Positions 9,601 to 33,166 of a DNA stretch of 41,595 nt are shown piece by piece. The notes under the pieces are model-generated. The model saw only the letters and a list, made by a program, of their open reading frames with translations, was not told where the DNA came from and did not search any database. The DNA is taken from IMG/VR virus record IMGVR_UViG_3300034101_001399, positions 1 to 41,595 of that record; one strand, 5' to 3'. This DNA comes from a virus. The position numbers and the translations under genes were made by a program. Position 1 is the first letter of the stretch. Each line of letters opens with the position of its first letter.

Positions 9601-10826
9601 CTGGATTGGATGGTACATTCTTTGGAAGTAGTGGTACTTCTGGTACATCCGGAACGTCTGGAACATCTGGTTCAACCGGTACAGCTGGTAGTGGTGGTTC
9701 TTCTGGTACTTCTGGTAGTGGTGGTTCGTCTGGTACTTCGGGAACCTCTGGGGTTAATGGAACTTTCTTTGGTAGTAGTGGAACGTCTGGTTCATCGGGA
9801 ACATCTGGAACTTCCGGAACATCTGGTGTAAGCGGTTCATCTGGAACAACAGGTTCTTCTGGTACAACTGGTTCGTCTGGTTTAGATGGTACATACTTTG
9901 GTAGTAGTGGTACGAGTGGTGTATCTGGAACGTCTGGTACAAGCGGTGTAAGTGGTTCATCTGGAGTAAGCGGTACATCTGGTACAACGGGTTCATCCGG
10001 AACTTCTGGAGTAAATGGTACAATGTTTGGTAGTAGTGGTACATCTGGTACATCTGGTACTGGTATTGCTGGTACGTCTGGTACATCGGGTGTAACTCCT
10101 CCTGGTATGACTTCGGGAACATCTGGACAAGATGGAACTTTATTTGGTAGTAGTGGTACATCTGGGAATAGTGGAACTTCTGGTACAACACCTCCGGGTA
10201 TGACTTCGGGAACATCTGGACAAGATGGAACTTTATTTGGTAGTAGTGGTACATCTGGATTAGCTGGAACATCTGGCACAACTCCTCCTGGTATGACATC
10301 TGGTACATCGGGTACATCTCAATTCCCTGTAAATGGAAATACTGATAATGGTTTACTAACATATGATGTAGCAACTGTTGGAGCAAACGTAGAAGCTAAT
10401 ATTACATTTAATGGTTCTACTTTAACAATTGTAGGAAATACAACTCAAACTGGGGATGTAAATGTAACAGGAGCAGTAACAGCAACTACACATATAACTT
10501 CAACAACATTTAGAGAAACATTTAATAATTTAGGAACTGGTGGTAGTGTTAATTTAGACCTATCAACGGCTAATAACTTTAGAAGACAATTTAATGCAAA
10601 TGCAACAATAACATTCACTAATCCTCCTGCATCAAACGCATTTGGATTTACAATACTTACTGTAAATGCAGGAGCATATACATTAAACTGGCCAGCAAAT
10701 ATCCAATGGCCGGGTGGAATTGAATTTCCACTATTAACAAATACTGGTGTAGATGTTTTAGTATTCTATACTTATGATGCAGGGACAACCTATTATGGAT
10801 TTGTAAGCGCTAAAAATTTAAGTTAA
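621..10826 (+). CDS. Giant modular tail fibre / adhesin with collagen-like shaft (3401 aa)
   Basis: This is a long fibre expected to project from the tail and bind the host surface. Residues about 95-1815 hold some 22 copies of a module with the core SGSxTASxSPxxGF, alternating with GDGSxLxNIP-type motifs common in phage fibres. Two cupredoxin-like domains are inserted at about residues 500-609 and 1103-1213. Each has a His in GHPFW (H548, H1152) and a C-x2-H-x2-M cluster (C594/H597/M600; C1198/H1201/M1204). Residues 2196-3233 are an almost unbroken Gly-X-Y repeat, mostly GTS and GSS, with interruptions such as GLDGTYFGSSG. The last 168 residues are a non-repetitive, probably globular tip with no S74 chaperone motif. 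The chassis is shared with the gene at 12863. The fibre call is firm; receptor and trimeric state are inferred. Confidence 0.88.
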   Translation: MAISNLLTGRVRVVNPKNVTSDRYQFLDISQAEPNLGVPNFSASLLTNPAIVVSDDQGNRGFARTISLDQISGSFSGSFQGDGSNLTGVKADVSPQISSGSATASISPDRGLQINVDTTILGNLYVSQSIIADQLIVNIISSSVIYSSGSNIFGDAENDKQEFTGSVQIQSELIVNTVTGSSFSGSFTGSFFGDARDLFNLPQATRLASGSVTASVAPNTGFVVTSIASGSKFTGSLFVSGNVVIPSGSGFFSGSGEGLFNIPLSALNIDSLVSTRIASGSATASISPNRGLVVNTTITASMYSGSGKGLFDIPISALSQEVFRIASGSVTASASPNFGFRVQSATVGSQITGSMFVSGNIELAVGAYYSGSGEKLFNIPRSALTPDALVATLIASGSVTASTSPDFGFRVQSFQSGSQFTGSLFVSGARGIEITSGSSFSGSGERLFDIPVSALRDLDLTRIKSGSATASISPNRGLEVNIFSTFTGSMIVSASIKYLPSESIQTVFNVTNSGVSQYVFSGATEGNNPTLTLVRGITYTFNLNATGHPFWIKTTSSSGTGNAYNTGVTNNGDDNGVITFTVPSNAPNMLYYNCQLHLIMAGTINVVDAIVQRDSGVLIYGDEVITGSLNVRDVVRAREFTGSLSASFIQGDGSGLYNIPRSAFTGDSPRISSGSVTASVSPNFGFKVETPATGSGIGSQFTGSVSVSGSVNAFFFEGDGSRLINVTVPPQIATRIATGSITASVDSTRGFRVESSGIGSEFTGSIRVTGSVEISSGSSFSGSGARLFDIPRTALTPDALLTTFIASGSVTASVSPNVGFDVKSSLLGSRFTGSIFANAGIRLMSGSFSGSGRDLFDIPVAALSDLDTSKIFSGSATASISPNRGFEVFAATSKFSGSISASIFSGSGAGLTNIPFSALSQELFRITSGSVTASVSPGTGFKVESLASGSQFTGSLFVTGGFIRVATGSFFSGSGAGLLNIPRSALNDDALTATEIKSGSVTASVSPAEGFKVISLASGSQFTGSLFVTGGNVRVATGSFFSGSGKGLLDIPRSALSPDALLSTFIASGSVTASVAPNTGFVVNSYSTISGSLIVSSSARERPNSDIDTVFTVTNAGSSAYNISNRLVSGSNPTLTLVRNVEYVFNVNASGHPFWIKDTNSTGTANSYDTWVTNNGDDVGVITFLVSGSAPDTLYYNCQLHGSMAGTINVVDAFYVPAEIKLIGETKVEGNVTASMFSGSGRGLFDIPRSALSEEVFRIASGSVSASVSPDFGFRVESFDSGSDFSGSIRIDSSSFLYAVGTYLRQIPRAALTEDALISAEIKSGSVTASVAPDYGFRVTTPFTSSIDANGYFATQIASQFTGSINVSGSLFINDVSGGVYIASSSFLYSDGTYLRNIPRSALTEDALVSTEIKSGSVTASVSPDYGFRVISDRTGSQVAAQITGSVDISGSLTVKDFIFGDGRFITNVQAAASPLIASGSATASVADGERFVVTTAKTGSEIGSEFTGSVEISGSLIVSNFLIGDGTFITNVVAAASPKIASGSVTASVSPNFGFRVETQATGSGIGSQFTGSISVSGSIQAVTYFGDGSNLTNVAAAAAPRIASGSVTASVAPNTGLLVNSYVNISQTVPSSSAGLIVSGAALISGSITASRYDGDGGGLFNIPASALQDLELDRIQSGSGRAIVSPQELNVNVPITAALFIGDGGGLFNIPANALEDLQLDRIRSGSVEAVISPNNGLEVNTKTRISSSLSVSGGLFVTGGNIVLNGSGSAFVGDGSGLYNITIANLSFETSIMKSGSFTASISPDKGFVVNTSASIWGNLYVGDNLRATTITGSTQIYSPIVSGGLLGTYTYQGNGPTASAEYDILRFDENRGHYIPQPETSLTETVSFNNVSSLTIVHNLGIRYPMVQVYATGSEDQILPGTIKSIDDDTIQIVFSGLTSGHAVIGSGGSLISGTIEGGRVIGTVLSASFAQVAGTANSLVGFDSSSLAALGDLQNFVRNSQTSSMAVFSAVSSSYALTASYALNAGVGSGTELFIYQTSSLVKAQVGKIHFTGSGVDVISSGSDGVLVTILGGGVTSLTASYVASSDVDGPLGMDSITFARTASYALFALNTPSSDTSSFLQINTNQTINASLTISGSLGVTGSSFLTGPVVANSSVQLNNLPTGSSEEVVVWNNVTKRLERRNIAAAVGSSGTGGSSGTTGSSGSSGSSGTSGTSGSAGSSGSSGTSGFDGTSGTSGSSGTSGSSGTSGTSGSSGTSGSSGTSGSSGTSGSSGTSGSSGTSGSSGTSGSSGSSGTSGSSGTSGSSGTSGTSGSTGSSGTSGSSGTSGSSGTSGTSGSSGTSGTSGSSGTSGSSGTSGSSGTSGSAGSSGSSGSTGSSGSSGTSGTSGSSGTSGTSGSAGSAGSGGSAGSSGSSGSGGTTGTGGSGGSSGTSGSSGTSGTSGTSGSSGTSGSDGQSGTSGTSGTSGTSGKDGTSGSSGTSGTSGSTGSAGSSGTSGIDGTSGSSGTSGSAGSSGTSGTSGSTGSSGTSGSSGTSGTNGSSGSSGTSGTSGSTGSAGTTGSSGTSGSSGTSGTDGTSGTSGSSGTSGTDGSAGTTGSSGTSGSSGTSGTSGTDGTSGSAGSSGTSGTDGSAGTTGSSGSSGSSGTSGTNGSSGTSGTDGTSGTSGSSGTDGSAGTSGTSGSSGTSGTNGTSGTSGSAGSSGSAGSSGSAGSSGTSGTSGTSGLDGTYFGSSGTSGTSGTSGTSGTSGTSGTSGTSGKDGTFNGSSGTSGLSGTSGTSGTSGSNGSAGSSGTSGTSGTSGLDGTYFGSSGTSGSSGTSGISGSSGTSGSSGTSGTSGVDGTFNGSSGTSGTSGTSGSSGTSGTSGSSGTSGTSGLDGTLFGSSGTSGESGTSGSAGTSGVSGTNGSAGTSGTSGLDGTLFGSSGTSGTSGTSGTSGSSGTSGTSGTSGLDGTFFGSSGTSGESGTSGTSGTDGSAGSAGSSGSSGSSGTSGLDGTFFGSSGTSGTSGTSGTSGSTGTAGSGGSSGTSGSGGSSGTSGTSGVNGTFFGSSGTSGSSGTSGTSGTSGVSGSSGTTGSSGTTGSSGLDGTYFGSSGTSGVSGTSGTSGVSGSSGVSGTSGTTGSSGTSGVNGTMFGSSGTSGTSGTGIAGTSGTSGVTPPGMTSGTSGQDGTLFGSSGTSGNSGTSGTTPPGMTSGTSGQDGTLFGSSGTSGLAGTSGTTPPGMTSGTSGTSQFPVNGNTDNGLLTYDVATVGANVEANITFNGSTLTIVGNTTQTGDVNVTGAVTATTHITSTTFRETFNNLGTGGSVNLDLSTANNFRRQFNANATITFTNPPASNAFGFTILTVNAGAYTLNWPANIQWPGGIEFPLLTNTGVDVLVFYTYDAGTTYYGFVSAKNLS
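911..6063 (+). repeat. About 22 degenerate copies of a fibre beta-module (SGSxTASxSPxxGF)
   Basis: The encoded core recurs roughly every 60-100 residues. It is usually followed by a hydrophobic strand, then a GS-F-T/S-GS strand and a GSG-LF(D/N)IP turn. Copies 20 and 21 are the most divergent (GSGRAIVSP, GSVEAVISP). One further copy lies in the second giant fibre near residue 93. DNA identity between copies is patchy, with many synonymous differences, so this is an old protein-level repeat rather than a recent DNA duplication. Confidence 0.8.
7206..10319 (+). repeat. Collagen-like Gly-Thr-Ser / Gly-Ser-Ser triplet tract, fibre 1
   Basis: Glycine occupies every third residue for about 1038 residues (about 346 triplets). 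The other positions are nearly all Ser, Thr, Ala, Asn or Asp. Proline appears only in three late TPPGMTSG blocks. Interruptions of the form G(L/K/V/I/Q)DGT(Y/F/L)xGSSG break the tract at irregular intervals. Synonymous codons are mixed throughout (GGT/GGA, ACA/ACT/ACG, TCT/TCA/AGT/AGC). Reading the other frames gives long artefactual ORFs on both strands. Confidence 0.9.
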
Positions 10827-12862: not shown

Positions 12863-15800
12863 ATGCAGAATTTAGGTAATAATCCTAATGGTTTAAATCA
12901 ACTAAGCGCAAGTTTAGTTTCTTTATTTGTAAGTGGAAGTAGAATAGCTAACTTTTCATCTGCGTCTGGATTGCAGATTGATAAGGTTGGTACATTTTCT
13001 AATACAACCCTTGAGATAACAGCTAATACAAAAATTAGTGGTTCAATAACAGCATCATTATTTAATGGTGATGGTGGTGGATTATTTAATATTAATGCAG
13101 CTTCAGTAGGAGATTTAGATAGATTAAAATCAGGTTCGGCAACAGCAATTATTTCTCCAAATAAAGGTTTAGTAGTAAATACTGATTTAACAGTAGCAGG
13201 TACAATAAATGCAACTGAATTAAAAGTAACATATATATCATCATCAATAATCTACGCAAGTGGTTCATCTAAATTTGGTGATGCACAAAATGATAAGCAA
13301 GAATTTACTGGTAGTGTTAATATAACTGGTTCATTATTTTTTGGAACGGGCTCTTTAAAGCAAGATATAACAACTGAAGAAGTTTTAGTTTATAACATAA
13401 CAACTGGTAAGGTTGGTATTAAAACTTCAGCAGCTTCATCTGGAACATCGGGAACATCTGGAACATCAGGAACGTCTGGAACATCGGGAACGTCTGGTAC
13501 AAGTGGTACATCTGGAACTTCTGGTAGTAGTGGAACTTCTGGAAGTAGTGGTACAAGTGGTTCTTCTGGTACAAGCGGAACATCGGGTACATCTGGAACT
13601 TCAGGAACATCTGGTACATCTGGTACAAGTGGTACAAGTGGTACAAGTGGTACAAGTGGTACATCGGGAACTAGAGGTACATCGGGAACAAGCGGTACAT
13701 CAGGAACATCTGGTACAAGCGGTACGTCTGGTGTTAGTGGAACTTCAGGAACATCTGGTACAAGCGGAACAAGCGGAAGTAGTGGAACATCTGGAAGTAG
13801 TGGAACATCTGGAAGTAGTGGAACATCTGGTACATCTGGATTAACCGGTACAAGCGGTACATCTGGATTGACAGGAACATCTGGAACATCTGGATTAAGT
13901 GGTACAAATGGTACATCGGGAACTTCTGGAATAAGTGGAACTGCTGGTACATCAGGCACATCAGGAACATCTGGTACATCTGGAACTTCTGGATTAACTG
14001 GTGCTGGTGGTGGTAGTGGTTCTTCTGGTTCGTCTGGTATATCTGGTACTTCTGGAACATCCGGTACTTCTGGAACATCTGGAACATCAGGAACTTCTGG
14101 AACATCAGGAACTTCTGGAATTAGTGGAGCTGGTGGTGTAAGTGGTACAGCTGGAACATCGGGAACATCTGGAACGTCTGGTACATCTGGAACTTCTGGA
14201 ACACGTGGTACATCTGGAACATCTGGTGTAAGTGGTTCGGCTGGTTCTTCGGGAACAAGTGGAACATCTGGAACGTCTGGAGTTAATGGAAGTAGTGGTA
14301 CATCTGGAACATCTGGTGTAAGTGGTTCGGCTGGTTCTTCAGGAACAAGTGGAACATCTGGCACAAGCGGTACATCTGGTATAGGTAGTAGTGGAACATC
14401 TGGTACATCAGGAACATCAGGAACAAGAGGTACATCTGGAACGTCAGGTACATCGGGAATAAATGGTAGTAGCGGTACATCTGGCACATCTGGAATAAAT
14501 GGTAGTAGCGGTACATCTGGCACAAGTGGAACATCTGGTACAAGTGGCACATCTGGAATTAGTGGAAGTTCGGGAACATCTGGCACATCAGGTACATCGG
14601 GAACTTCTGGTACTTCTGGAACATCGGGAACATCTGGGATATCAGGAACATCTGGAACTTCTGGAACATCAGGTACATCCGGTACACGTGGAACTTCTGG
14701 AACATCGGGAACTTCTGGTACAAGTGGAACATCGGGCACATCGGGAAGCAGTGGAACTTCAGGAACTTCTGGTACATCCGGAACATCTGGTACATCTGGG
14801 GTTAATGGTAGTGATGGAACATCTGGCACATCAGGAACTTCTGGAACTTCTGGCACATCGGGAACATCTGGAACTAGAGGTACATCCGGAACTTCTGGCA
14901 CATCGGGAACTTCTGGAACATCTGGCACATCCGGAACAAGAGGTACATCTGGTACTTCTGGTACGAGTGGTACATCAGGAACTTCAGGTACATCTGGAAC
15001 ATCTGGTTCATCGGGAACTTCTGGATTATTATCATTAACTGGTACAACTGATAATGGTGTAATCACATTAAACGGAACTGCACCAAACGCAACCGTTGAA
15101 GCAAATTTAAGATTTGATGGTACTACATTAGCAGTAACTGGTAACGCTACAATTAGTGGTGACCTTACTGTAAGTGGTACTACAACATATATTAATACAA
15201 CAACTCTTAACATAGGTGATAATATTATTACACTTAACGCAGATATTGGAGCAGCAACTGCACCAACCGAAAATGCAGGTATAGAAGTTAAGAGAGGTAA
15301 TGCCGCAACAAAAGCATTTTATTGGGAAGAAGCAAATGATAGATGGTATGCTGAAGATGGTCTTTATGTAGCTGGTAATGTAGTTCTTAGCGGAACAGTG
15401 GATACTGGACAGGGAGCTACGGAAGTTCATTTAATGAATCAAAATCTTAGAACAACCGATTCACCAACTTTTGTAAATGTGACAGCAACTTTAATAGGAA
15501 CTGCTGATAGAGCAGAAGCTGTTGATTCAAACGATACTAGAAATACAAACGATACCCCTTCAAGTAAAAATGCTGGAGTTTATTTTGATTTTAAAGCAAA
15601 TAGTACAAACGGATTAAGTGATGGTGGTACATATAACGGACAAATGTTTTGGAGAAGTTATGGTGGTAGTACCGATTTAAGTGGTGGATATCCAATACAA
15701 ATTGCATACACTGCTGCTGGTAGAATATGGAGTAGATTGGGCACATCATCATCTGCTTGGGCATCTTGGCAACAAATATTAAATAGTGTTGACCAAGCAT

Positions 15801-18800
15801 TTGCATATAATATGAATCAAAACGTTAGAACAACGGATAATGTTATACATAATCAGGTAACAGCAAACTCTGGTGGTAATGGTGGAGCATTTTATCTATC
15901 TGATACTGGTGCTGGTTTATATAGAGATAATACTTACGATGTTGTACTATTACAAGGTAATTCATCTGGTAATAAATTATTTATGGCAGGTGCTGGTGAA
16001 GTTAGAGTAAGTATAGATTCTAATGATAATGAAACTGCACAAAAATTCGTAGTTGGTAATAACGCAATTAAATCAACAAACGAATTATTCTCTGTAAATG
16101 AAAGTGGCACAACATTCGCATCATCTGATTTCAGAGCACCAATATTTTATGATTCAGATGATACTACATATAGAATTGATGGACTTGGTGCATCTGTTTT
16201 AAATGAACTTACAACAAACGGAATATTTAGAGCAAATGGATCTGGTGCACCATTTATGAGATGGCATAATACATCAGCATCTGGATATCTATTATTGGGA
16301 TTATATAACGACCAAGGAACACAAAGAGTTTGGTTTGGTTTAGGTGGAAGAACACAAACATTTGGTTCATATGCAGCATATTCACAGGATGGGTTATCTA
16401 TGAATTTAGATGGAGCTGGAGCAATCAATATTTCAAATAGAGGTTCATCTAAAAGAATTAATTTAAATACTGGTACTGAAGGGGCTACGAATTTTACTAC
16501 ATTAAGATTAGATAATCAGAATGTGTATATAACACCTGATTCAAACACAGGTACTTTAGATGCACCTATATTTAGAGAATTAACAAACACAGCATATTAT
16601 GTAGACCCATCAAATAGTGGTACATCATTTTATATGGGTGGTGGTATGGTAACAACCGCACCAGGTGGTACTATCCTAATGAAACACGCAGTTAGTGAAG
16701 TTGATGCATGGATATTCCAAGAAAACGCAGCAAACTGGGGATTGTATTGGAAAAACAACCCATCCGGTCACCATGCATTCGGAGCATATACAACGGTAGG
16801 AGCTGAATTGGTGGGTATGTCAGCAGCAAACGCAAGTGGAGCTGGTGTACAAACATCTAACTTTGTAGGAGCATCATCTGCATGGGCACAATGGATGTTA
16901 TCTAACTACACTGGATACATTTGGTCAGCTAGTACAATTGATGCAGCTGGAGACATGAGGTCACCAATATTTTATGATAGAAATGATACGGGATTCCGTT
17001 TAGACCCAACTGATTATTCATATTTAAGATATCTTAAAATTAGAAGTAGTGGTAGTTCGTCTGGAACTAGAGCATTGACAATATTATCCGAAGGACAGGG
17101 AGAAATTAACTTTGGGGCTTATCCAGCATCTTGGACAGCGGCATTACAAATTCAAAATAATAACAATACAGATTTTGTTTGGATTTCACCAATAGATGAT
17201 GGCTACAACGCAAGATTTAGAACTGGTGGATGTGGATTGGATTTTTACACAGATGGTAGTACGGATACTGGTAATTATTCCCTATTTGTAGGAAGTGGAT
17301 ATGCACAAGGTATTAATTCATTGAGAGCACCAATATTTTATGATTCTAATAATACTTCATATTATGTGGATCCTGATGGTGGTGGGTTTGTAATGAGAGG
17401 TGGTTCTAGTAATAGAGTTAGTTATTATACTAATGATTCTGGATTTAGAGTTCAGAATCCGGAAGGTAATGGTACTAGTGATGTAAGATTGGGGGCAGCA
17501 TGGGGAAGGCCTGGTGTATATTCTAGTAATTATTTAAGTTTAGGTTCTGAAAGTTACATTGAATTTGTAACTGGAAATGGGCAAAGAGCTTATATAGATG
17601 GTGGTTCAAATGTGTTTGCATATGGTTCTATGAGAGCTCCAATATTTTATGACCAAAACGATACGGCTGGATATATAGACCCAAATACACCTGTTAATGG
17701 TTTTAGATTTTATAGTGGCGCTGGCTGGTGGCAATTAAGAGGACAAACTCATTGGGATAGTCAGCCTGGTATTGATTTAAGTGGTGGTACATCGGAATTC
17801 CGTTTTAGTTCAACTGGTGGAAACTGTAATTTAAGAACCGATGGTTGGCTTATTGCACATGATTATCTCCAATCACTTAACCAATCGTACTCTACAATAC
17901 ATTATGACCAAAATAATACGGGATACTATATAGACCCTAATAATGTATCACAACTTCATTATGTGATGGCCGATAACTGGTTTAGAGCACAAGGTGGTAG
18001 TGGCTTCTATACACAAGATTATGGTTCACATTGGAGAACTTCATTTGCATCAGCATATGGAACCTGGGAGTCCTTTGGTTTTTCTAGAAATGGATGGGCA
18101 GGATTAAATGTTATAGACCCATCTGGATATTGGAATAACTATATGCACGAAAGTGGTAATGGTGGTTTATATCAACAAAACGGAAGTGGCTGGGTATGGT
18201 ATTGGAGCAGAGGAAATGGATGTTTAGGTATCGGTGGTTCATCTACCGTTGGTGGATATAGAGCAAGAGTAAATGGAGGATTATATGTAGACTCCACCTT
18301 ATATGTTCCAGCTGCTGTATATGGTACTATATTCTATGATGCAAATGATAGTGGATATTATTTAGACCCTAATGGTGTAGACAACCAAGGTTTAAGAATT
18401 AGAGGTGGTACACTTCATGGACCTAACTGGAGTTGGGGAGCATATCTACGTGTTGGTACTAATGGTTATCTTGATGGTTGGGCACACGTAATGACAACCA
18501 ATGGTAACTTACACTTAGATTGTAGAGCTGGATATGAAACTTATATCAACCACTATACTGGTAATAGAACTTATCTTTATGAAATAAGAACAAACTTTAT
18601 TTACGATAGAGATAATACTGGATATTATTCTGACCCGAATGGTACATCTCGTATGAACTATGTTATACATGATAACGTTTATTCATATAGCTGGATTTTC
18701 TCTCAAAACAATATTATCGCTTACTATTCGGATGAAAGATTGAAAACTAATTTAGGACCAATTGAAAATCCATTAGATAAAGTGAATCAACTTAATGGAT

Positions 18801-19105
18801 TCTACTATATTGAAAATGATTTAGCACGTTCATTTGGATATAAAGATGAAAAGGTTCAAGTAGGTTTATCAGCTCAGCAAGTTCAAGCAGTATTACCACA
18901 AGTTGTAACTCTAGCTCCGTTTGATATGGATATAGATAACGAAACTAAAGAGATTAAAGGTTCTAAAACTGGTGAAAACTATTTGACTGTTGATTACGAA
19001 AAGATAGTACCTCTATTAGTAGAAGCTATCAAAGAACTTAGTGATGACTTAAATAAAACAAAAGCTGAAGTTACCGAATTAAGAAAATTGATAGAAGAAA
19101 AATAA
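12863..19105 (+). CDS. Second giant collagen-like tail fibre with C-terminal S74 self-cleaving chaperone (2080 aa)
   Basis: Residues 1-192 match the module style of the first fibre, including SGSATAIISPNKGL and a block SSIIYASGSSKFGDAQND nearly shared with it. Residues 193-721 are Gly-Thr-Ser triplets. A domain beginning TDNGVITLNG, also found after the first fibre's triplets, comes next. From about residue 1090 to 1925 there are eight copies of an (A)PIFYDxNDTxYYxDP motif, each followed by Trp/Gly-rich beta sequence. The end is a peptidase S74 intramolecular chaperone with the SDERLK signature (S1956, K1961), a GLSAQQVQ motif and a terminal coiled coil. The family cleaves just before the Ser, which would leave about 1955 residues of fibre. 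The S74 call is strong; the receptor is unknown. Confidence 0.9.
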   Translation: MQNLGNNPNGLNQLSASLVSLFVSGSRIANFSSASGLQIDKVGTFSNTTLEITANTKISGSITASLFNGDGGGLFNINAASVGDLDRLKSGSATAIISPNKGLVVNTDLTVAGTINATELKVTYISSSIIYASGSSKFGDAQNDKQEFTGSVNITGSLFFGTGSLKQDITTEEVLVYNITTGKVGIKTSAASSGTSGTSGTSGTSGTSGTSGTSGTSGTSGSSGTSGSSGTSGSSGTSGTSGTSGTSGTSGTSGTSGTSGTSGTSGTSGTRGTSGTSGTSGTSGTSGTSGVSGTSGTSGTSGTSGSSGTSGSSGTSGSSGTSGTSGLTGTSGTSGLTGTSGTSGLSGTNGTSGTSGISGTAGTSGTSGTSGTSGTSGLTGAGGGSGSSGSSGISGTSGTSGTSGTSGTSGTSGTSGTSGISGAGGVSGTAGTSGTSGTSGTSGTSGTRGTSGTSGVSGSAGSSGTSGTSGTSGVNGSSGTSGTSGVSGSAGSSGTSGTSGTSGTSGIGSSGTSGTSGTSGTRGTSGTSGTSGINGSSGTSGTSGINGSSGTSGTSGTSGTSGTSGISGSSGTSGTSGTSGTSGTSGTSGTSGISGTSGTSGTSGTSGTRGTSGTSGTSGTSGTSGTSGSSGTSGTSGTSGTSGTSGVNGSDGTSGTSGTSGTSGTSGTSGTRGTSGTSGTSGTSGTSGTSGTRGTSGTSGTSGTSGTSGTSGTSGSSGTSGLLSLTGTTDNGVITLNGTAPNATVEANLRFDGTTLAVTGNATISGDLTVSGTTTYINTTTLNIGDNIITLNADIGAATAPTENAGIEVKRGNAATKAFYWEEANDRWYAEDGLYVAGNVVLSGTVDTGQGATEVHLMNQNLRTTDSPTFVNVTATLIGTADRAEAVDSNDTRNTNDTPSSKNAGVYFDFKANSTNGLSDGGTYNGQMFWRSYGGSTDLSGGYPIQIAYTAAGRIWSRLGTSSSAWASWQQILNSVDQAFAYNMNQNVRTTDNVIHNQVTANSGGNGGAFYLSDTGAGLYRDNTYDVVLLQGNSSGNKLFMAGAGEVRVSIDSNDNETAQKFVVGNNAIKSTNELFSVNESGTTFASSDFRAPIFYDSDDTTYRIDGLGASVLNELTTNGIFRANGSGAPFMRWHNTSASGYLLLGLYNDQGTQRVWFGLGGRTQTFGSYAAYSQDGLSMNLDGAGAINISNRGSSKRINLNTGTEGATNFTTLRLDNQNVYITPDSNTGTLDAPIFRELTNTAYYVDPSNSGTSFYMGGGMVTTAPGGTILMKHAVSEVDAWIFQENAANWGLYWKNNPSGHHAFGAYTTVGAELVGMSAANASGAGVQTSNFVGASSAWAQWMLSNYTGYIWSASTIDAAGDMRSPIFYDRNDTGFRLDPTDYSYLRYLKIRSSGSSSGTRALTILSEGQGEINFGAYPASWTAALQIQNNNNTDFVWISPIDDGYNARFRTGGCGLDFYTDGSTDTGNYSLFVGSGYAQGINSLRAPIFYDSNNTSYYVDPDGGGFVMRGGSSNRVSYYTNDSGFRVQNPEGNGTSDVRLGAAWGRPGVYSSNYLSLGSESYIEFVTGNGQRAYIDGGSNVFAYGSMRAPIFYDQNDTAGYIDPNTPVNGFRFYSGAGWWQLRGQTHWDSQPGIDLSGGTSEFRFSSTGGNCNLRTDGWLIAHDYLQSLNQSYSTIHYDQNNTGYYIDPNNVSQLHYVMADNWFRAQGGSGFYTQDYGSHWRTSFASAYGTWESFGFSRNGWAGLNVIDPSGYWNNYMHESGNGGLYQQNGSGWVWYWSRGNGCLGIGGSSTVGGYRARVNGGLYVDSTLYVPAAVYGTIFYDANDSGYYLDPNGVDNQGLRIRGGTLHGPNWSWGAYLRVGTNGYLDGWAHVMTTNGNLHLDCRAGYETYINHYTGNRTYLYEIRTNFIYDRDNTGYYSDPNGTSRMNYVIHDNVYSYSWIFSQNNIIAYYSDERLKTNLGPIENPLDKVNQLNGFYYIENDLARSFGYKDEKVQVGLSAQQVQAVLPQVVTLAPFDMDIDNETKEIKGSKTGENYLTVDYEKIVPLLVEAIKELSDDLNKTKAEVTELRKLIEEK
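13439..15025 (+). repeat. Collagen-like Gly-Thr-Ser triplet tract, fibre 2
   Basis: About 529 residues (roughly 176 triplets) have Gly at every third position, dominated by GTS. Occasional GTR, GVN, GIN, GLT and GAGG variants occur, and proline is absent. Compared with the first tract it is more uniform, with fewer aromatic interruptions. Synonymous codons are again mixed, so long identical DNA runs are short. Confidence 0.9.
16137..18639 (+). repeat. Eight copies of the IFYDxNDTxYYxDP fibre repeat
   Basis: Copies begin near 16137, 16561, 16960, 17328, 17634, 17893, 18324 and 18595. Each encodes an I-F/H/I-Y-D (once IFRE) core, an Asn/Asp-Thr pair and an aromatic pair before D-P. Spacing of about 270-430 bases implies one motif per beta-prism-like unit. 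The second copy (IFRELTNTAYYVDP) has lost the Tyr-Asp pair, and the first ends in DG instead of DP. Confidence 0.75.
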
Positions 19106-19682: not shown

Positions 19683-22031
19683 ATGGCAGAAAGAATCGTA
19701 TCACCCGGCGTATTCACAAGAGAAAATGACCTATCCTTCTTAGCGCAAGGAGTAGGTGAAATTGGAGCAGCATTTATAGGACCTTTCAAAGAAGGGCCTG
19801 TTTTTGTACCAACAATTGTGAGAAGTCAATCAGAGTTTGAAGAAATGTTCGGAAAACCTGATGGAACTTATTATACTGAATATGCAGTACAAAACTATTT
19901 AAGAGAAGCTGGTACAGCAACAATCGTAAGGGTTGGTGGAATCGGTGGATATCAACAAATTGAACCATTGGGTATATTTGCATCCAACGGAGCTGGTGCA
20001 GCTAGATTAGTTGCAACATTACATTCAACTAAAACTGGTGATGAGAAAGTAGGTTTCCCATCTGCAGTTATTGCTAGTAATAATACAGCAGCTAACTCTG
20101 GTTCATTCTTATTATCATCTTCATTTGGTTGGATATCATCATCTATATTACCAAAAAATACAAACGATATTTCTGATGTATTTGGTGAATCTACTTTTGG
20201 TAGTAAAACCGCATATGCATATACATACTTTGAGTATTTTGCATCATCATCATTTAGTAATCCATCTAACGGTACTATAATGAGCGTTGAAACATTACCA
20301 ACTCAGGACTTTGCATTTGATGCATCAGCAGCTGAAACTCCAGTGGTTAAATCTCAATTAGTAGATGGTACAAGATATAATCTATTTAAGTTCGTAACCA
20401 AAGGACATGGTACAGGATACAATACTAAATTTAAAGTTGGTATTTCAAATGTAAAAGCAGCTGGTGAAGATGCTTCTACTGATTATTCTACATTTACTGT
20501 AACGATTCGTTCATATAGTGATACGGATAAAAGAAAGACTGTTTTGGAATCATTCCAAAATGTAAACTTAGACCCTAATTCAGCAAATTATATTGCTAGA
20601 AGAATAGGTGATAGATATTTTACAATTGGTGATACTGGAAAAATTACTGAATTTGGTAATTATTCAAATCAATCAAAATATATAAGAGTTGAAGTTCAAA
20701 ATACTACTGATTTGGCTGGACCTGGTTCATACCCAATATCAGCAGCACCATTTGGACATGGGGCTTATACAAACCCAATTGAAGCAACTAATAATGCACA
20801 AGCATTAAGATTACCATCTGTAGTTTATCAAACAAACTCAGCAGGTAACACTTCATCATCTCCAGTATATTATGCTGGTATGGATTTTGAAAGTGAAGGT
20901 ATATCTGGTGATAACGCTCAGTTCTTAAAACCAATTCCTGTTGGAGCACAAACTGGTTCAAATCTTGATTTTGGATTTGATGGTAATATAAGTGGTATAG
21001 GATTAACATATCAAATTACAGGTTCATCAGCAACTGATATGGTTAAGAGACAATTTGTATTAGGTTTCCAATATGGATTTGATGGTTTAAACCCAACATT
21101 AACTGTAGCAAAACCTGGAGATGCAGATTGGGGTCCGGGTAACACTCAGGGATTCAATTGTTCAACATCAGCAACATCTGGTTCGGTAGCTTACAATAAA
21201 GCATTAAACGCAATTTCAAATCCTGATGAGTATGATATTAATATGTTAGTAACTCCTGGTATTGTAAGAAGTTTACATCCATCTATTGTTACTAAAGGTA
21301 TTGATATTTGTGAAGATAGACAAGATTGTTTTTATATAGCTGATTTTGTTGATTATAACGCAACTATAACAGGTGTAACTGAAGCAGCTAACGCGGTTGA
21401 TACAAACTACGCAGCAACTTACTATCCTTGGGTTAAAACAATTGATACTAACACAAATAAATTAATAACTGTACCACCATCAGTATTGATGCCGGCTGTA
21501 TTCGCTGCAAACGATAGATTAGCAGCTGAATGGTTCGCACCTGCTGGTTTGAATAGAGGTGGTATTACTGGAGCAGTTTCAGTATTAGATAGATTAACAC
21601 ATGCTGAAAGAGATACTCTATATGAGAACAAAGTAAATCCAATCGCAGCATTCCCTGGACAAGGTATTGTAGCATTCGGACAAAAAACATTGCAAGATAG
21701 AGCATCAGCATTAGATAGAATCAACGTAAGAAGATTACTTATCACAATGAAGAAGTTTATAGCATCTACATCTCGTTTCTTAGTATTTGAACAAAATACT
21801 ACTGAGACAAGACAAAGATTCTTGAACACTGTTAATCCTTACTTAGAGAGCATACAACAAAGACAAGGTTTGTACGCATTCAAAGTAGTAATGGATGAAA
21901 CAAACAATACACCTGATGTAATCGATAGAAACATATTAGCAGGACAAGTGTTCTTACAACCGGCTAAGACAGCGGAATTCATAGTAATTGATTTCAACAT
22001 CTTACCAACAGGAGCATCTTTCTCAGCATAA
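19683..22031 (+). CDS. Contractile tail sheath protein, T4 gp18-like (782 aa)
   Basis: This protein polymerises around the tail tube and contracts to drive it through the cell envelope. The N-terminus (MAERIVSPGVFTRENDLS, then GAAFIGPFKEGPVFVPTIV and a SEFEEMFGKPD block) and the C-terminus (LETIxQRQGLYAFKVVMD-type block, NILAGQVFLQPAKTAEFIVIDF) are the usual conserved ends of phage sheath proteins. The middle, about residues 120-520, is variable and probably surface-exposed. Its length exceeds T4 gp18 (about 660 residues), with the extra sequence in that middle. A weak GGAG lies eight bases before the ATG, which is uncommon here. The tube gene follows directly, the standard order. Confidence 0.93.
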   Translation: MAERIVSPGVFTRENDLSFLAQGVGEIGAAFIGPFKEGPVFVPTIVRSQSEFEEMFGKPDGTYYTEYAVQNYLREAGTATIVRVGGIGGYQQIEPLGIFASNGAGAARLVATLHSTKTGDEKVGFPSAVIASNNTAANSGSFLLSSSFGWISSSILPKNTNDISDVFGESTFGSKTAYAYTYFEYFASSSFSNPSNGTIMSVETLPTQDFAFDASAAETPVVKSQLVDGTRYNLFKFVTKGHGTGYNTKFKVGISNVKAAGEDASTDYSTFTVTIRSYSDTDKRKTVLESFQNVNLDPNSANYIARRIGDRYFTIGDTGKITEFGNYSNQSKYIRVEVQNTTDLAGPGSYPISAAPFGHGAYTNPIEATNNAQALRLPSVVYQTNSAGNTSSSPVYYAGMDFESEGISGDNAQFLKPIPVGAQTGSNLDFGFDGNISGIGLTYQITGSSATDMVKRQFVLGFQYGFDGLNPTLTVAKPGDADWGPGNTQGFNCSTSATSGSVAYNKALNAISNPDEYDINMLVTPGIVRSLHPSIVTKGIDICEDRQDCFYIADFVDYNATITGVTEAANAVDTNYAATYYPWVKTIDTNTNKLITVPPSVLMPAVFAANDRLAAEWFAPAGLNRGGITGAVSVLDRLTHAERDTLYENKVNPIAAFPGQGIVAFGQKTLQDRASALDRINVRRLLITMKKFIASTSRFLVFEQNTTETRQRFLNTVNPYLESIQQRQGLYAFKVVMDETNNTPDVIDRNILAGQVFLQPAKTAEFIVIDFNILPTGASFSA

Positions 22032-22083: not shown

Positions 22084-22572
22084 ATGGCAACAGTATTAGA
22101 ATACAACGATATGTTCTACAAAACCTGGGAACCGAAAACCAAAGCTCGTTTTAAAATGAGTATAGATGGGATTGATGCATATTTGGTAAAGGCAGGTAAT
22201 AGACCTCAAATCAACTTTGAAGTTGTAACTTTAGACCACATTAACGTGAAAAGAAAGTTACAAGGTAAAGGTGAGTGGCAAGATATCACACTTACACTTT
22301 ATGACCCAATTGTACCATCAGGTGCACAGCAAGTTATGGAGTGGGTTCGTTTAGGACATGAATCAATCACTGGTAGAAAGGGATATTCTGAATTCTATAA
22401 AAAGACTATCAAAATTGAAATGTTAGGACCTGTTGGTGATGTAGTTGAAACTTGGACTTTATATGGAGCATTTCCATTGCAAGTAAACTTTGGTGAATTA
22501 GATATGACATCTAATGACCCAGCACAAATCGAATTGCAAATAGCATATGATTACGCTGTATTAGAATTCTAA
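22084..22572 (+). CDS. Tail tube protein, T4 gp19-like (162 aa)
   Basis: It forms the inner tube through which DNA passes, stacking as hexameric rings inside the sheath. The whole protein matches the T4 gp19 pattern: RFKMSIDGIDAYLVKAG near the N-terminus, a DHINVKRKLQGKGEWQDITLTLYDPI block, V-x-W-x3-GHE, a WTLYGAFP strand and a C-terminal strand QIELQIAYDYAVL. Length is as expected (T4 gp19 is 163 residues). A purine-rich AAAGGAAAAG just upstream of the ATG may act as a ribosome site. A strong terminator follows, so sheath and tube form a separately terminated unit. Confidence 0.93.
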   Translation: MATVLEYNDMFYKTWEPKTKARFKMSIDGIDAYLVKAGNRPQINFEVVTLDHINVKRKLQGKGEWQDITLTLYDPIVPSGAQQVMEWVRLGHESITGRKGYSEFYKKTIKIEMLGPVGDVVETWTLYGAFPLQVNFGELDMTSNDPAQIELQIAYDYAVLEF

Positions 22573-22680: not shown

Positions 22681-23442
22681 ATGAACGAAAAACAATATGA
22701 TTTTCCAACGGAAGTTATCAGTTTACCATCGGAAGGTAAATTATATCCAAAAGACCATCCATTATCATCTGGTCAAATAACAATTAAGCACATGACTGCA
22801 AAGGAGGAAGATATCCTTTCTTCACAAAACCTTATCAAAAAAGGTATTGTGTTAGATAAGTTATTTGAATCGGTTATTGTTGATAATGTTAATATAGATG
22901 ATATTCTTATTGGAGATAAAAACGCTATTATATTAGCAACAAGATTATTAGGATATGGGCCTACTTATCAAGCATCTGCATATTCTTCTCTAAAAGGAGA
23001 TGTTATAAATATTGATGTGGATTTATCAAAAATTGAAACAAAAAAAGTAGATATATCCAAATTTGAAAATAAAAATGAATTTGAATTTATTACTCCAACT
23101 AGTAAAAATAAATTAACATTTAAATTATTAACTCATGGTGATGAAAAGGCTATCGATAAAGATATTACCGCATTAGAAAAGGTTAATAAAGATACTTCAC
23201 ATGATATTACTACTAGATTTAGACATATAATTAAAGCCGTAGATGGTGATAATAGTGTAGCAGCTATTAATAAATTTATAAATGGATTTTTAGCAAAAGA
23301 TAGTAGAGCATTTAGAGATTACATTAAAACAATTCAGCCGGACATGGATATGAGAATCACATATACACATGAAGACGGACAAGAGGAGGTACTGCCCATA
23401 GTAATGGGCGTAGGGTTTTTTTGGCCTAGCTCCGAATCATAG
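22681..23442 (+). CDS. T4 gp26-like baseplate/tail assembly protein, zero-frame product (253 aa)
   Basis: It belongs to the T4 gp26 (T4_baseplate) group, acting in hub or tail assembly. Landmarks are LPSEGKLYP at residues 15-23, IKHMTAKEEDILSSQNLIKKG at about 38-58, and VDNVNIDDILIGDKNAIILATRLLGYGPTY at about 67-100. The zero-frame product ends GVGFFWPSSES, and an FFWP end is what I remember for this family. A seven-T run at 23416-23422 lies under the FFW codons. A long ORF in the +1 frame overlaps it, so part of the product is probably extended by frameshifting. The gene starts a new unit after a terminator and precedes the tape measure gene, the usual place for tail assembly chaperones. Confidence 0.85.
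   Translation: MNEKQYDFPTEVISLPSEGKLYPKDHPLSSGQITIKHMTAKEEDILSSQNLIKKGIVLDKLFESVIVDNVNIDDILIGDKNAIILATRLLGYGPTYQASAYSSLKGDVINIDVDLSKIETKKVDISKFENKNEFEFITPTSKNKLTFKLLTHGDEKAIDKDITALEKVNKDTSHDITTRFRHIIKAVDGDNSVAAINKFINGFLAKDSRAFRDYIKTIQPDMDMRITYTHEDGQEEVLPIVMGVGFFWPSSES
23394..23422 (+). promoter_or_regulatory. Probable programmed frameshift site: hairpin plus seven-T run
   Basis: A hairpin GCCCAT-AGTA-ATGGGC (23394-23409) ends six bases before TTTTTTT (23416-23422), read GGG TTT TTT TGG in the zero frame. The +1 frame is open only from 23414 onward, because TAG at 23411-23413 closes it upstream, and the zero frame ends at 23442. Any shift must therefore happen in this 29-base overlap. Shifting by -1 meets TAG at 23427; only +1 or -2 gives a long product. 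Confidence 0.65.
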
Positions 23443-23629
23443 TATTCAACTCCATACTCAAATTTTTGAGATGGTAAACTATGGTAATGGGTTCACAATA
23501 ATGGATTTGTATAGAATGCCAACCTATCTTAGAATGTTTTACTACCAACAATTAGTAAATGCTAAGAAAAAGGAAAACGAAGCTATAGAACAACAAAATA
23601 AGCAATCAAAAGTTAGGATTAATAGATAG
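23414..23629 (+). CDS. Frameshift extension of the gp26-like protein (about 68 aa, +1 frame)
   Basis: After the T run the +1 frame reads GLAPNHSIQLHTQIFEM, then VNYGNGFTIMDLYRMPTYLR, then MFYYQQLVNAKKKENEAIEQ and a basic end, stopping at 23627-23629. The pattern of a short helix, a DLYRMPTYLRMFYYQQL core and a charged coiled tail is what I recall for C-terminal parts of phage tail assembly chaperones. Joined to the upstream gene it gives about 315 residues. An internal ATG at 23471 could yield a separate 52-residue protein, but it has no clear ribosome site and would drop the first 16 codons, which look protein-like. The stop falls in the loop of the terminator that follows. Confidence 0.7.
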   Translation, partial: GFFGLAPNHSIQLHTQIFEMVNYGNGFTIMDLYRMPTYLRMFYYQQLVNAKKKENEAIEQQNKQSKVRINR

Positions 23630-23685: not shown

Positions 23686-23919
23686 ATGGCAAAGAAGTAT
23701 AAAATAAAAAAATCAAATTTAACGGAGTTTTTTGGTTGGTTTTCAAAAAAAGACCCGCCTAAGCAAATTCAACAATTGATTGATGATGATCCTGAGCTAC
23801 AAAAATTAAGAGATAAGATTGATTCTATAACAAGACAGTCTATTCCCAAATTTGAAAAAATGAAAAAGGAAAATCCTAAAGAATACGAAGCACTTAAAAG
23901 TGTAGGATTAGTACCATAA
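23686..23919 (+). CDS. Small basic protein of unknown function ahead of the tape measure gene (77 aa)
   Basis: The protein is lysine-rich and predicted mostly helical: a basic start (MAKKYKIKKSNL), an aromatic FFGWFSKKDPP segment and a charged helix PELQKLRDKIDSITRQS. There are no Cys residues, no signal peptide and no known motif. It lies between the gp26-like chaperone and the tape measure gene, 15 bases ahead of the latter. A role in tape-measure folding or tail initiation would suit the position, but nothing in the sequence proves it. Confidence 0.7.
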   Translation: MAKKYKIKKSNLTEFFGWFSKKDPPKQIQQLIDDDPELQKLRDKIDSITRQSIPKFEKMKKENPKEYEALKSVGLVP

Positions 23920-23934
23920 TAATTGAATTAAATA

Positions 23935-26349
23935 ATGGCCACTATACCTCAACAAGAAGAGCAAAGACTAAAACTATTAGAGCAGATTGAAGCAGCTGAA
24001 AAACGAATTAATGCGCAAAATGAAAAGATAGCTGTATCTAAAGCTAAAGAAGCTAAACGTCTTGAAAAAGTAATGGCTGCTGAAAAAAAGAGTTTAGAAA
24101 CACTAAAGGAAGAACTCAAAGTAACTGAAAAACTTTTATCTACAAATCAAAAGAGGTCAGAGACTTTAAAAAAGCAGGCTCAATTTAAAAAAGAAATATT
24201 AGAAGATAGTGAAAACGAATTAAAATCATTTTCAAAACTATCAACAAGACTTAAAGCAGCATTAAATGATGAAAGCACAGGTTATAGTGCTATAGCTAGT
24301 GTATCTGCAAGAATAAGAGAAATTAATACAAAAATACTTCTTGTTAAAAAAGATGGTAAGAAGTTTACAGACGATGATAGAGCAGCTGCAGCTGATAAAT
24401 TACAAAAATTATTTAGTGAAAAAGAACTTTTAAAACAGCAAAGAGAAGCTCTTCTTTCACAAGTAGAATCTACTCTTGATATTAGAGATACTACTAAAGG
24501 AATGAGTGAGGCTGCAAAAGAAGAATTAAAATTCAAAGAATCTATAAAAGATTTTGATGAAAACACTCAAAAAATCTTTATGGATATGTTTGAGCAACGA
24601 AAGGCATTTCTAGCACAAGAAAAAAGAATTGGGGAAATACAAGAACAGCAGAAAAAAATGTATGATGTAATACCAGATGGTTTAAAATCTATAATTGAAG
24701 GTGTTAGTACATTTCTTAAAATATCAAGTCTTGTAGTACTTGTTTGGGCTGGTATCGCGGCAATCTTTGCATTGGGTGTAAAGGCATTCACAGAATTATC
24801 TGCAGCAGCGAAGAAATTCAGACAAGAAACGGGAATTTTAAATTCTCAAATGGGTGATATTAAAGATAAAGCTGCAGAAGTTACTCAAGAAATGGCTCAT
24901 TTAGGAGTAGAAGCTGAAGATGTATATAATGTAATTACTGAACTTAAAAACGAATTTGGTGATATAGCTAATATATCAAAAGATACAGTAAGAGCATTAA
25001 CGGTATTAAATTCTAATTTTGGAATAGCTAACGAAGATGCAACTGAATTTGTTGCTCAATTACAAGCAATGACTGGATTGAGTGAACAAACTGCAACCAA
25101 TTATGCAATACAGGTAACAAACGTTGCAAAATTGGCAAAAGTAGCACCATCTAAAGTATTTAAAGATATAGCAGAGGCAGCCAAAGATAGTGCTGAATAT
25201 TTTGGAACTGGATTTGATAATATGGCCAAAACTGCAATTGAGGCTAGAAGACTTGGTACTACTTTAAAAGAAGTAATGGGAGTTAGTGAACAACTTTTAG
25301 ATTTTGAAGGTAGTATAGAGCAGGAGTTAAAAGCTAATGCATTTGCACAAGGGCAATTTAATTTAACTCAAGCAAGAGCATTAGCAGCAACAAAGGATTA
25401 TTCGGGTGCATTGGATGAGGTGTTAGACCAAATGGAAAGAGGTGGTAGATTTGCCGATAAAGACCTTTGGACACAAAAAGAATTAGCAAAAACAGTAGCT
25501 AGTACACCTGCGGTTATCCAAAAATTAATTCACCAACGAGAAAAATTAGCGCATTTGGGTGATGATGAAAAGGCATTAGCACTTCAAGCAATAGAAAATG
25601 GATTAGATATTACTAATGCAAGTAAAGAAGATTTACAATTAGCAATAAGTAAATTAAAGACAGAGCAAGAAATGCAAGGACAATTAACAAAAATTATAAA
25701 TTCATTCAAAGGAATTGGTATGGTAATTGGAACTGCAGTACTTCCACTTATACAAGCTATGGTAATGGCTTTAGAACCATTTGCGATGCTTATTAATGGA
25801 ATTGCAACTACATTTGGAAAAATAGGAAATGTGTTAAGTGGAGTATCTAAATCTTTATTTGGAGCAACTGAATTTGGTAGAGGTTTTTTCAAAGTATTAA
25901 AAGGAATAGCTACGGTTGCGTTAATAGCAGGTGGAGCTATGATGGCATTAAGTGGTAATGTATTTGGTGGAGCTGCTTTGGTTATTGCTGGTAGTTCTTT
26001 TTTAAATGGTATTAGTATAGATGATGGTGAAATTGATAAAGAAGGAAATGTTGTAAGTACTCCAAAAGGAACTGTAAGATTAAATTCTGAAGATACATTT
26101 GTTGGAAATAAAAATGGAGTTGTAGCTGGAACAAATTTATTCGGAGGTGGTTCTGAAAATGCAAGTTCTTTATCAAACCAAAAAACATCACAACAAACAA
26201 ACTTTGCTCTTATTAATGAAATACGAGCAATGAGAAACGATTTGAAAACAGGAGGTATCCAAGCGTACGCAAGTATAGACGGTAAGAAATTAAATTCAGG
26301 TTTAATGTCAGTTCAATCTAAAAATACAAGAAATACATTAGGATTATAA
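23935..26349 (+). CDS. Tail tape measure protein (804 aa)
   Basis: It sets tail length and is probably ejected with the DNA. Residues 1-240 are almost continuous charged coiled coil rich in Lys, Glu and Ala. Three hydrophobic segments follow, at about 263-285, 593-627 and 659-690, the last two with the Gly/Ala/Val-rich character usual in tape measure proteins. Between them is a helical region with TAxxFVAQLQAMTGLSEQTA-type sequence. The C-terminus is polar. If the usual figure of about 0.15 nm per residue holds, the tail would be near 120 nm. It follows the chaperone and tube genes in the standard order. Assignment rests on architecture and synteny rather than a motif. Confidence 0.85.
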   Translation: MATIPQQEEQRLKLLEQIEAAEKRINAQNEKIAVSKAKEAKRLEKVMAAEKKSLETLKEELKVTEKLLSTNQKRSETLKKQAQFKKEILEDSENELKSFSKLSTRLKAALNDESTGYSAIASVSARIREINTKILLVKKDGKKFTDDDRAAAADKLQKLFSEKELLKQQREALLSQVESTLDIRDTTKGMSEAAKEELKFKESIKDFDENTQKIFMDMFEQRKAFLAQEKRIGEIQEQQKKMYDVIPDGLKSIIEGVSTFLKISSLVVLVWAGIAAIFALGVKAFTELSAAAKKFRQETGILNSQMGDIKDKAAEVTQEMAHLGVEAEDVYNVITELKNEFGDIANISKDTVRALTVLNSNFGIANEDATEFVAQLQAMTGLSEQTATNYAIQVTNVAKLAKVAPSKVFKDIAEAAKDSAEYFGTGFDNMAKTAIEARRLGTTLKEVMGVSEQLLDFEGSIEQELKANAFAQGQFNLTQARALAATKDYSGALDEVLDQMERGGRFADKDLWTQKELAKTVASTPAVIQKLIHQREKLAHLGDDEKALALQAIENGLDITNASKEDLQLAISKLKTEQEMQGQLTKIINSFKGIGMVIGTAVLPLIQAMVMALEPFAMLINGIATTFGKIGNVLSGVSKSLFGATEFGRGFFKVLKGIATVALIAGGAMMALSGNVFGGAALVIAGSSFLNGISIDDGEIDKEGNVVSTPKGTVRLNSEDTFVGNKNGVVAGTNLFGGGSENASSLSNQKTSQQTNFALINEIRAMRNDLKTGGIQAYASIDGKKLNSGLMSVQSKNTRNTLGL

Positions 26350-31867: not shown

Positions 31868-31876
31868 GTATCTTTG
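31845..31876 (+). promoter_or_regulatory. Host-type promoter for the polymerase-like gene
   Basis: TTTG (31845-31848), 20 bases, then TATCTTTG (31869-31876) is a full match to the Bacteroidetes consensus. The ATG at 31883 begins seven bases after the box, so the transcript may be leaderless or nearly so. Confidence 0.65.
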
Positions 31877-31882
31877 TATCCT

Positions 31883-33166
31883 ATGATAATTGTTGAGTCT
31901 ATTGATGAATTGAACGAATTGAGTACAAAATTGGAAACCGAAGCTTCCATTTGGTATCCTATGTGGGTGGACAATGATAAGCACCCTAATAACACTCATA
32001 TATCGTTTATATTCATTAAAACCCAAACGGACAAGTATATACTACCACATCAACACACAGACGCTATATGCTCCTCTAATTACGAAATAGGGAGTGTGTT
32101 GAATACTGCCGGAGAAAAATGGGTATTCCAAAAGAAAAAGCTACTACAATCTTTTACGGATGTAAGGGAAGGCTTGAATGATGTTGACACTGCTTACTTC
32201 TTAAAGCATGGTAAAACAATAGACTACTCTCAACCAATACAACACTTAGTGGCTCCCTTTATTCATAAGGGTTACAAAGAGGACATCATTCAATCCATTC
32301 CCATTCTTAAATTGTGTGAAGCAATTGAAAACGAACTAAATAGATATACAAATCAGAATTCTAAAACTTATAATTGGTATAATGATATATTCATTCCAAC
32401 CTTAGCCCGAATTGAGATGACGGGGATTCGTGTCGATAGGGAAAAATTTATTGATAGATGGCCACAAGCTTCCAAGCACTTAACCAATGGTAATTGTGTG
32501 TTTACGGAATACAATCCATTTACGGTGACAGGTAGACCATCCAATAGGCATGGTGGTGTGAACTATGCCGCCCTCAATAAATCGGATGGGACGAGAGAGG
32601 TATTTGTGGCTAATGGGATATACCTACAAATGGATTATAACGCATATCACCCTCGTCTTATCGGTAAGTTGATTAAGTTCCATATGCCGGAAGGTAATGT
32701 ACATGAGTGGTTAGCCGAACAATATGGATGTGATGTGAACGAAGGTAAGGGGATTACATTCCGTTTGTTATATGGTGGTATTGATGATGATTTCCGCCAA
32801 ATTCCATATCTTAATTCCGTAGCTGATTACATTGATAACCTATGGATTGAAACACAAAGAAACGGATTCCTACAAACACCACATAGAGAAATTCCGTTGG
32901 AGTGGATAGAACAACCTAACCCACAAAAAGTATTCAACTATCTACTTCAAGCGGTAGAGACTGAAATGAATGTGGATAAGATGAGAACGATATTGGATTA
33001 TATTGAAGGAAGTGGAATTACATTGGATTTATATACCTATGATTCGTTTCTTTTTGATGTTCCTACGGATGTTGACCCGAATATGATTAAGGATTTGAAG
33101 GATATTATTGAAGAAGGTGGTTTTCCTGTTAAAGCTAGTTGGGGATTGGATTACGGAAAACTATAA
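31883..33166 (+). CDS. Divergent, shortened family A DNA polymerase-like protein (427 aa)
   Basis: The order of Pol I landmarks is visible. FIPTLARIEMTGIRVD (about residues 156-171) is the segment before the palm. FTVTGRPSNRHGGVNYAALN precedes motif A MDYNAYHPRLIG (D251). Motif B EGKGITFRLLYGG keeps the Lys, Phe and Tyr positions (K289, F293, Y297) but lacks the Arg four residues before the Lys. Motif C reads TYDSFLFDVP, keeping Asp (D387) where Pol I has HDE. The N-terminal 150 residues are shorter than a 3'-5' exonuclease domain and show no clear DEDD residues. At 427 residues it is well below normal Pol I size. A TTG at 31874 lies inside the promoter and is not the start. Both catalytic Asp residues remain, so activity is possible. 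Confidence 0.75.
   Translation: MIIVESIDELNELSTKLETEASIWYPMWVDNDKHPNNTHISFIFIKTQTDKYILPHQHTDAICSSNYEIGSVLNTAGEKWVFQKKKLLQSFTDVREGLNDVDTAYFLKHGKTIDYSQPIQHLVAPFIHKGYKEDIIQSIPILKLCEAIENELNRYTNQNSKTYNWYNDIFIPTLARIEMTGIRVDREKFIDRWPQASKHLTNGNCVFTEYNPFTVTGRPSNRHGGVNYAALNKSDGTREVFVANGIYLQMDYNAYHPRLIGKLIKFHMPEGNVHEWLAEQYGCDVNEGKGITFRLLYGGIDDDFRQIPYLNSVADYIDNLWIETQRNGFLQTPHREIPLEWIEQPNPQKVFNYLLQAVETEMNVDKMRTILDYIEGSGITLDLYTYDSFLFDVPTDVDPNMIKDLKDIIEEGGFPVKASWGLDYGKL

Follow-up and report, generated by a model that had tools for sequence, protein, structure and literature searches.

The window, the whole 41,595-nucleotide stretch of viral DNA analyzed here (positions 1 to 41,595 of IMG/VR record IMGVR_UViG_3300034101_001399), carries a T4-type tail module that profile searches identified on the plus strand in the order sheath, tube, chaperone, T domain, and tape measure. 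A tail sheath protein (19683 to 22031; PF04984, E=3e-14; phrog_23, E=2e-72) is followed by a tail tube protein of the gp19 family (22084 to 22572; PF06841, E=7e-12; phrog_4542, E=3e-32) and by a 253-aa zero-frame ORF (22681 to 23442) of the T4 gp26-type short tail assembly chaperones (TAC-N, the analogue of lambda gpG). Downstream are a 77-aa ORF (23686 to 23919) matching a family of unknown function (phrog_23470, E=0.0009) and an 804-aa tape-measure-like protein (23935 to 26349), recognized by its match to phrog_4200 (tail length tape measure, E=0.0009) and by its position. The chaperone ORF therefore sits between tail tube and tape measure, as expected of T4-like tail assembly chaperones.

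This ORF matches phrog_150 (E=3.8e-7) and PF12322 (E=7.8e-5; 22.9 bits, slightly below the 24.5-bit cut-off), and its relatives in phages SP-15, GXN1, and RM378 score above the PF12322 cut-off. The initial annotation of a gp26-like tail assembly gene holds, and for this gene tail assembly chaperone is a better label than the usual "baseplate hub." Modeled with AlphaFold (pLDDT 89.6), the short form had one sensible fold match in the PDB, the HK97 tail assembly chaperone 2OB9 (probability 0.66, E=0.4), which is suggestive only; among viral models, its matches included many T4-type hub proteins.

We also observed a 2080-aa protein (12863 to 19105) in which a very long SGTSGTSG repeat tract precedes fibre-like repeats; the C-terminal end of the protein resembles, by eye only, an intramolecular chaperone. 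Downstream of the tail genes, a 430-aa ORF with a TTG start (31874 to 33166) matches phrog_17 (DNA polymerase, E=3e-8) over residues 316 to 422. The strand opposite a 3401-aa ORF (621 to 10826) holds a 759-aa open frame (8000 to 10279) that is probably an artifact of composition or repeats.

The 3' end of the chaperone ORF reads GGG TTT TTT TGG CCT AGC TCC GAA TCA TAG, the TAG at 23440 to 23442 ending the short form. The seven-T run reported in the initial annotation is present exactly at 23416 to 23422, and the +1 frame is open from 23414, with 68 codons and a stop at 23627 to 23629; these codons and the stop (23423 to 23629) make up the T domain. The -1 frame is closed by a TAG at 23427, which excludes the classical lambda-type shift and, with it, a -1 shift as an explanation for the clade with this arrangement.

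Recurrence of the overlap and slip site

We compared IMG/VR relatives, 78 further IMG/VR loci, and cultured phages, counting the window in the totals. The +1 arrangement was present at 136 loci, of which 85 representatives were left at <90% identity. These loci belong to phages of Flavobacterium, Bacillus, Listeria, Streptococcus, Rhodothermus, and Microcystis and include the cultured phages immuto, Mel-JY01, SP-15, LIS04, GXN1, and RM378. Aligned across these related phages, the overlap and the +1 extension recur at all 136 loci, with the T7 run kept in most. No examined relative has an indel joining both parts in one frame, the pattern that would have pointed to an assembly error at the T run, and such an error is ruled out by the recurrence.

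At all 136 of 136 loci, the P-site codon is UUU or CUU and the next base is U or C, an arrangement that would let the tRNA re-pair one base 3'. The sites were TTT TTT TGG (72 loci; next codon CCT, CCA, or AAT), TTT TTT TAC/TAT (41), TTT TTT CCC (13), and TTT CTT TGG (5), with one locus each for TTC TTT TAC (L105), TTT TTT CAC, TTC TTT CGT (GXN1), AAC TTT CTA (LR756508), and GAG TTT TTT. The codons in the A site across these loci (UGG, UAC, UAU, CCC, CAC, CGU, and CUA) include no stop and none that is obviously slow, unlike the RF2 site. Among the 85 representatives, the Phe codon in the E site is TTT in 81 of 83, and the P codon is TTT in 80, CTT in 5, and TTC in 0, versus 626 TTT to 216 TTC (about a quarter TTC) elsewhere in gp26, although the representatives share descent and these counts overstate their independence.

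A proposed +1 shift and its alternatives

We propose, with a probability of about 0.88 given these sequences, that some ribosomes shift +1 at the T run, so that one gene yields a short and a long chaperone. The majority of ribosomes would translate 22681 to 23442 into the 253-aa short form. In a minority, arriving at GGG_UUU_UUU_UGG, the P site would hold tRNA-Phe paired with the second UUU (E codon, 23416 to 23418; P codon, 23419 to 23421), and this tRNA would re-pair one base 3' on the UUU at 23420 to 23422, within the U7 run; in relatives, the equivalent re-pairing would be from UUU to UUC or from CUU to UUU. With GGC then read in the A site, translation in the +1 frame to 23629 would give a predicted long form of 315 aa (TAC-NC, the analogue of lambda gpGT), composed of zero-frame codons 1 to 247 and the T domain. 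If the two products work like lambda gpG/gpGT, coating of the tape measure would fall to the short form, and the T domain would bring in subunits of the tail tube. The analysis itself established sequence, conservation, coding selection, and homology; we infer the occurrence of the shift, its direction at the window's own site, its efficiency, and its function.

Tail-chaperone frameshifts are -1 in lambda and -2 in Mu, and the initial annotation had left the choice here at +1 or -2. Conservation among highly diverged phages, selection upstream of the first +1-frame ATG, and homology to gp51 support frameshifting into the +1 frame, and +1 is favored over -2. In a shift of the Mu type, which we consider improbable, the P-site tRNA would move back two bases on the T run and one extra Phe would be added. 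The T7 run permits cognate re-pairing of this kind in the window and in most relatives, and re-pairing is conceivable at TTT CTT TGG as well; at the L105, GXN1, and LR756508 sites, however, it would put UCU or ACU under the Phe tRNA, mismatched at the second position, whereas re-pairing in the +1 direction stays cognate. Re-pairing two bases back is thus not available in all relatives, and the sites TTC TTT CGT, TTC TTT TAC, and AAC TTT CTA disfavor both a -2 shift and transcriptional slippage.

A very improbable alternative is that the T domain is a separate gene with its own start, either the ATG at 23471 or a non-ATG codon. The T domain is annotated as a stand-alone gene in KVP40 and cyanophages, is a stand-alone ATG ORF at two of our loci, and has a GGAGG upstream. 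Over 31 separate representative pairs, however, dN/dS was 0.165 between the zero-frame stop and the first +1-frame ATG, matching the value for gp26 (0.157), so that independent initiation at an ATG is no explanation for this segment; beyond the zero-frame stop, the T domain had a dN/dS of 0.144. The first +1-frame start codons are scattered from 27 codons before to 36 codons after the slip site, with no conserved position, and in the window there is no ATG, GTG, or TTG between the +1-frame TAG that precedes GGT TTT TTT and position 23471. Expression from ATG 23471 only, named in the initial annotation as a competing explanation, is therefore unable to account for the conserved residues before it.

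The two loci with a stand-alone T (L052 and L054) carry a homing-endonuclease-like ORF (GIY-YIG-like, identified by eye) exactly at the junction, splitting the chaperone from the T domain (in L054, 4772 to 5347, with T at 5340 to 5660). In both, T starts with ATG and the slip site reads TTT TTC TTC CCA, which is no longer +1-slippery; sister loci retain TTC TTT TTT CCC. Judged from these sequences, the split is a natural experiment tying the slip site to the frame overlap.

Transcriptional slippage, in which RNA polymerase would add two U's or drop one on the T7 run and so produce mixed mRNA, is barely credible: the run exists and is kept at most loci, but relatives in which it is broken to T3 (TTTCTTTGG, TTCTTTCGT, and TTTCTATTC) retain the +1 extension.

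The GGAGG element and hairpin upstream of the slip site

In the window, an SD-like AGGAGG (23384 to 23389) lies 29 nt upstream of the P-site codon. Relative to the P codon, GGAGG occupies about -34 to -30 in most representatives, even though the residues encoded there differ (TEA, EEA, KEA, DGG, and KEF). An SD-like motif was found at this place in 67 of the 85 representatives, versus 6.4 expected from a synonymous codon redraw, and at control positions placed at random in the gene in 18 of 340, versus 21.9 expected.

A hairpin separates this element from the slip site. The perfect 6-bp stem noticed at the outset (GCCCAT-AGTA-ATGGGC, 23394 to 23409; core stem, 23394 to 23399 with 23404 to 23409) does lie six bases before the T run, is lengthened by TAC/GTA pairing to 23390 to 23412, and has a folding energy of -10.5 kcal/mol (z=-3.55 versus synonymous recoding). 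It is not conserved base for base, though a hairpin at this place is conserved in shifting registers. Relative to synonymous recodings, the segment from SD-like motif to slip site has a family mean z of -1.3, reaching about -1.6 in folding windows over -51 to 0, versus mostly 0 to -0.5 farther upstream in the gene. The third bases of two hairpin codons that lie opposite one another covary, with 30 of 56 forming Watson-Crick pairs versus 19.4 expected (permutation p 0.00025, uncorrected for kinship). Hairpin formation cuts the distance from the SD-like motif to the P codon from 29 nt to a median of 8.5 nt. We found no fixed downstream pairing partner for GGAGG, the predicted partners being mostly the T run. 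An SD-like sequence 3 nt upstream, as in RF2, was also considered, based on the AGGG before the first TTT in the window, and proved not to be general (the preceding codon is AAC, GGG, GAC, or others).

An upstream hairpin adjoining the E site is known to stimulate +1 shifting on 70S ribosomes (PMC6321510), and at the T4 gene 26-25 junction an arrangement of SD, hairpin, and AUG, with 27 nt cut to 11, has been proven (PMC3014915). We infer that GGAGG and the hairpin are the likeliest stimulator of the shift, which they may promote from the E-site side of the ribosome. Their presence could equally reflect mRNA processing, pausing, or other regulation without stimulation of the shift, an explanation that is compatible with frameshifting and has close to an even chance of being correct. 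It fits with the scarcity of SD motifs before the window's own genes (4 of 20), which leaves the role of SD in the host not assured, with the varying register of the hairpin, and with the missing GGAGG at its usual place in SP-15, GXN1, RM378, LIS04, and group B. It fits less well with the restriction of element and hairpin to the ~50 nt that immediately precede the slip site and with the near-fixed distance of GGAGG despite varied residues.

More tentatively, with odds somewhat below even, GGAGG and the hairpin may represent a new type of +1 stimulator. A GGAGG located 29 nt upstream would be brought to the P site by the hairpin, or the hairpin itself would push at the E-site side, as an elongation counterpart of the split ribosome-binding site of T4 gene 25, and the choice among +1, -1, and gene duplication would follow the spacing of element and slip codon. 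If it works, the element would count among bacterial stimulators of +1 shifting as one with a long linear distance to its slip site.

T4 gp26 and gp51 and comparison with known systems

Profile comparisons link the T domain (phrog_634, E=0.008) to gp51. T4 gp26 and gp51 each match PF12322 over its full length, and gp51 extends farther at its C terminus. In KVP40 and cyanophages, which are -1 lineages, the small gp51 is matched by the +1 T domain (hhalign probability 92.5, E=4.8e-7; best hmmsearch value, 1.9e-9 in a set of 14 sequences), and the gp51 of these lineages matches residues 207 to 246 of T4 gp51 (E=4.6e-7, single-sequence database). A direct profile match between the window T domain and T4 gp51 alone is weak (E=0.04 to 0.23); by way of the -1 lineages, these matches indicate that the T domain is homologous to the C terminus of T4 gp51. 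The presence of PF12322 in both T4 proteins, together with the match of the T domain to gp51, implies that T4 has the short and long forms as two paralogous genes, 26 and 51 (6803 to 7429 and 7480 to 8229 of L064), which lie on opposite strands. T4 gp51 is essential for assembly and absent from the virion, with a function listed as unknown (PMC3004832); being essential yet not in the virion fits a chaperone.

At 82 of 82 cyanophage/KVP40-type loci, the chaperone gene ends with the -1 heptamer T TTT TTC 10 nt before its stop, and the -1 frame of gp51 is open across it; Atu_ph07 and PA5oct share this heptamer. The T TTT TTC end is seen in L066, L067, L068, L069, L070, and L151 to L232, where the annotation lists gp51 as a gene of its own with an ATG start, and loci of this type often have GAGGG or AGAGG ~10 nt before the P codon. 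SD-like motifs occur in 10 of 11 of the -1 set versus 5.3 expected, an excess modest enough that we base no claim on it. On the gp26 tree, the +1 label requires three changes, a count made unsafe by long deep branches. By comparison of these loci, three solutions occur within the T4-type chaperone family at a single homologous position (a +1 shift, a -1 shift, or duplication of the gene), which makes the switch in direction experimentally testable. We also observed that gene 26 of T4 ends with the split site for gene 25 (AAGAGG, hairpin, and AUG), in the place that GGAGG, hairpin, and slip site occupy in +1 relatives; relic and convergence are both possible.

The T4-like tail assembly chaperones gp26 and gp51 were identified by Vladimirov, Gautam, and Davidson (2022, Virology 566:9), as cited in the PRFect and Adele papers (PMC10885494, PMC12846349), whose accounts mention poly-T -1 signals in T4-like phages and the two-gene solution of T4. 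The initial annotation, which knew of no +1 or -2 case described for the T4 gp26 group, was thus only partly right, since the chaperones were identified in 2022 and poly-T -1 signals were cited later. These systems share with the window the protein family, the place before the tape measure, and the short and long forms; they differ in that T4 uses two paralogous genes and the signals in the citing accounts are -1, whereas the window has one gene and a predicted +1 shift. A recoding review describes G-T frameshifting as conserved among long-tailed phages "except T4" (PMC5009743). Apparently new here are the +1 version in T4-type genes and the conserved SD-like GGAGG 29 nt upstream with a hairpin. 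The inspected records of immuto, SP-15, LIS04, GXN1, RM378, and Mel-JY01 either lack the long chaperone or annotate it wrongly, and many other phage genomes probably do so too.

The RF2 gene (prfB) shifts +1 at CUU_UGA, with an SD-like sequence 3 nt from the P codon and a stop in the A site. It shares with our loci P-site slippage at CUU_U/UUU_U with an upstream SD-like sequence, and it differs in the 3-nt spacing and the stop, the window having a 29-nt linear distance and a sense codon. In influenza A PA-X, mass spectrometry showed +1 shifting at UCC_UUU_CGU and yielded no -2 peptide (PMC3498833); a P-site UUU followed by C is shared with TTC TTT CGT of GXN1 (UUU_CGU), although virus and ribosome are eukaryotic and there is no upstream SD element. 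A +1 shift was proposed in the chaperone region of HF1-group haloviruses, at TTT-CGC (PMC7230728), and for the chaperone of HSTV-2 (PMC5009743). These proposals have in common with ours a +1 shift before the tape measure; the viruses are archaeal, the likeness noted is one of position and shift, and no SD-hairpin element was seen in the passages on these sites. Lambda gpG/gpGT (Xu 2004; PMC5009743) likewise comes in two forms, one short and one long, encoded by frames that overlap immediately upstream of the tape measure gene, with a -1 shift as opposed to the proposed +1 in the window, and we claim no protein sequence similarity. The split ribosome-binding site of T4 gene 25 shares the order of SD, hairpin, and P site at the end of gene 26 (PMC3014915); there, the arrangement serves initiation at an AUG, whereas the window has a slippery codon in that place, without a start codon.
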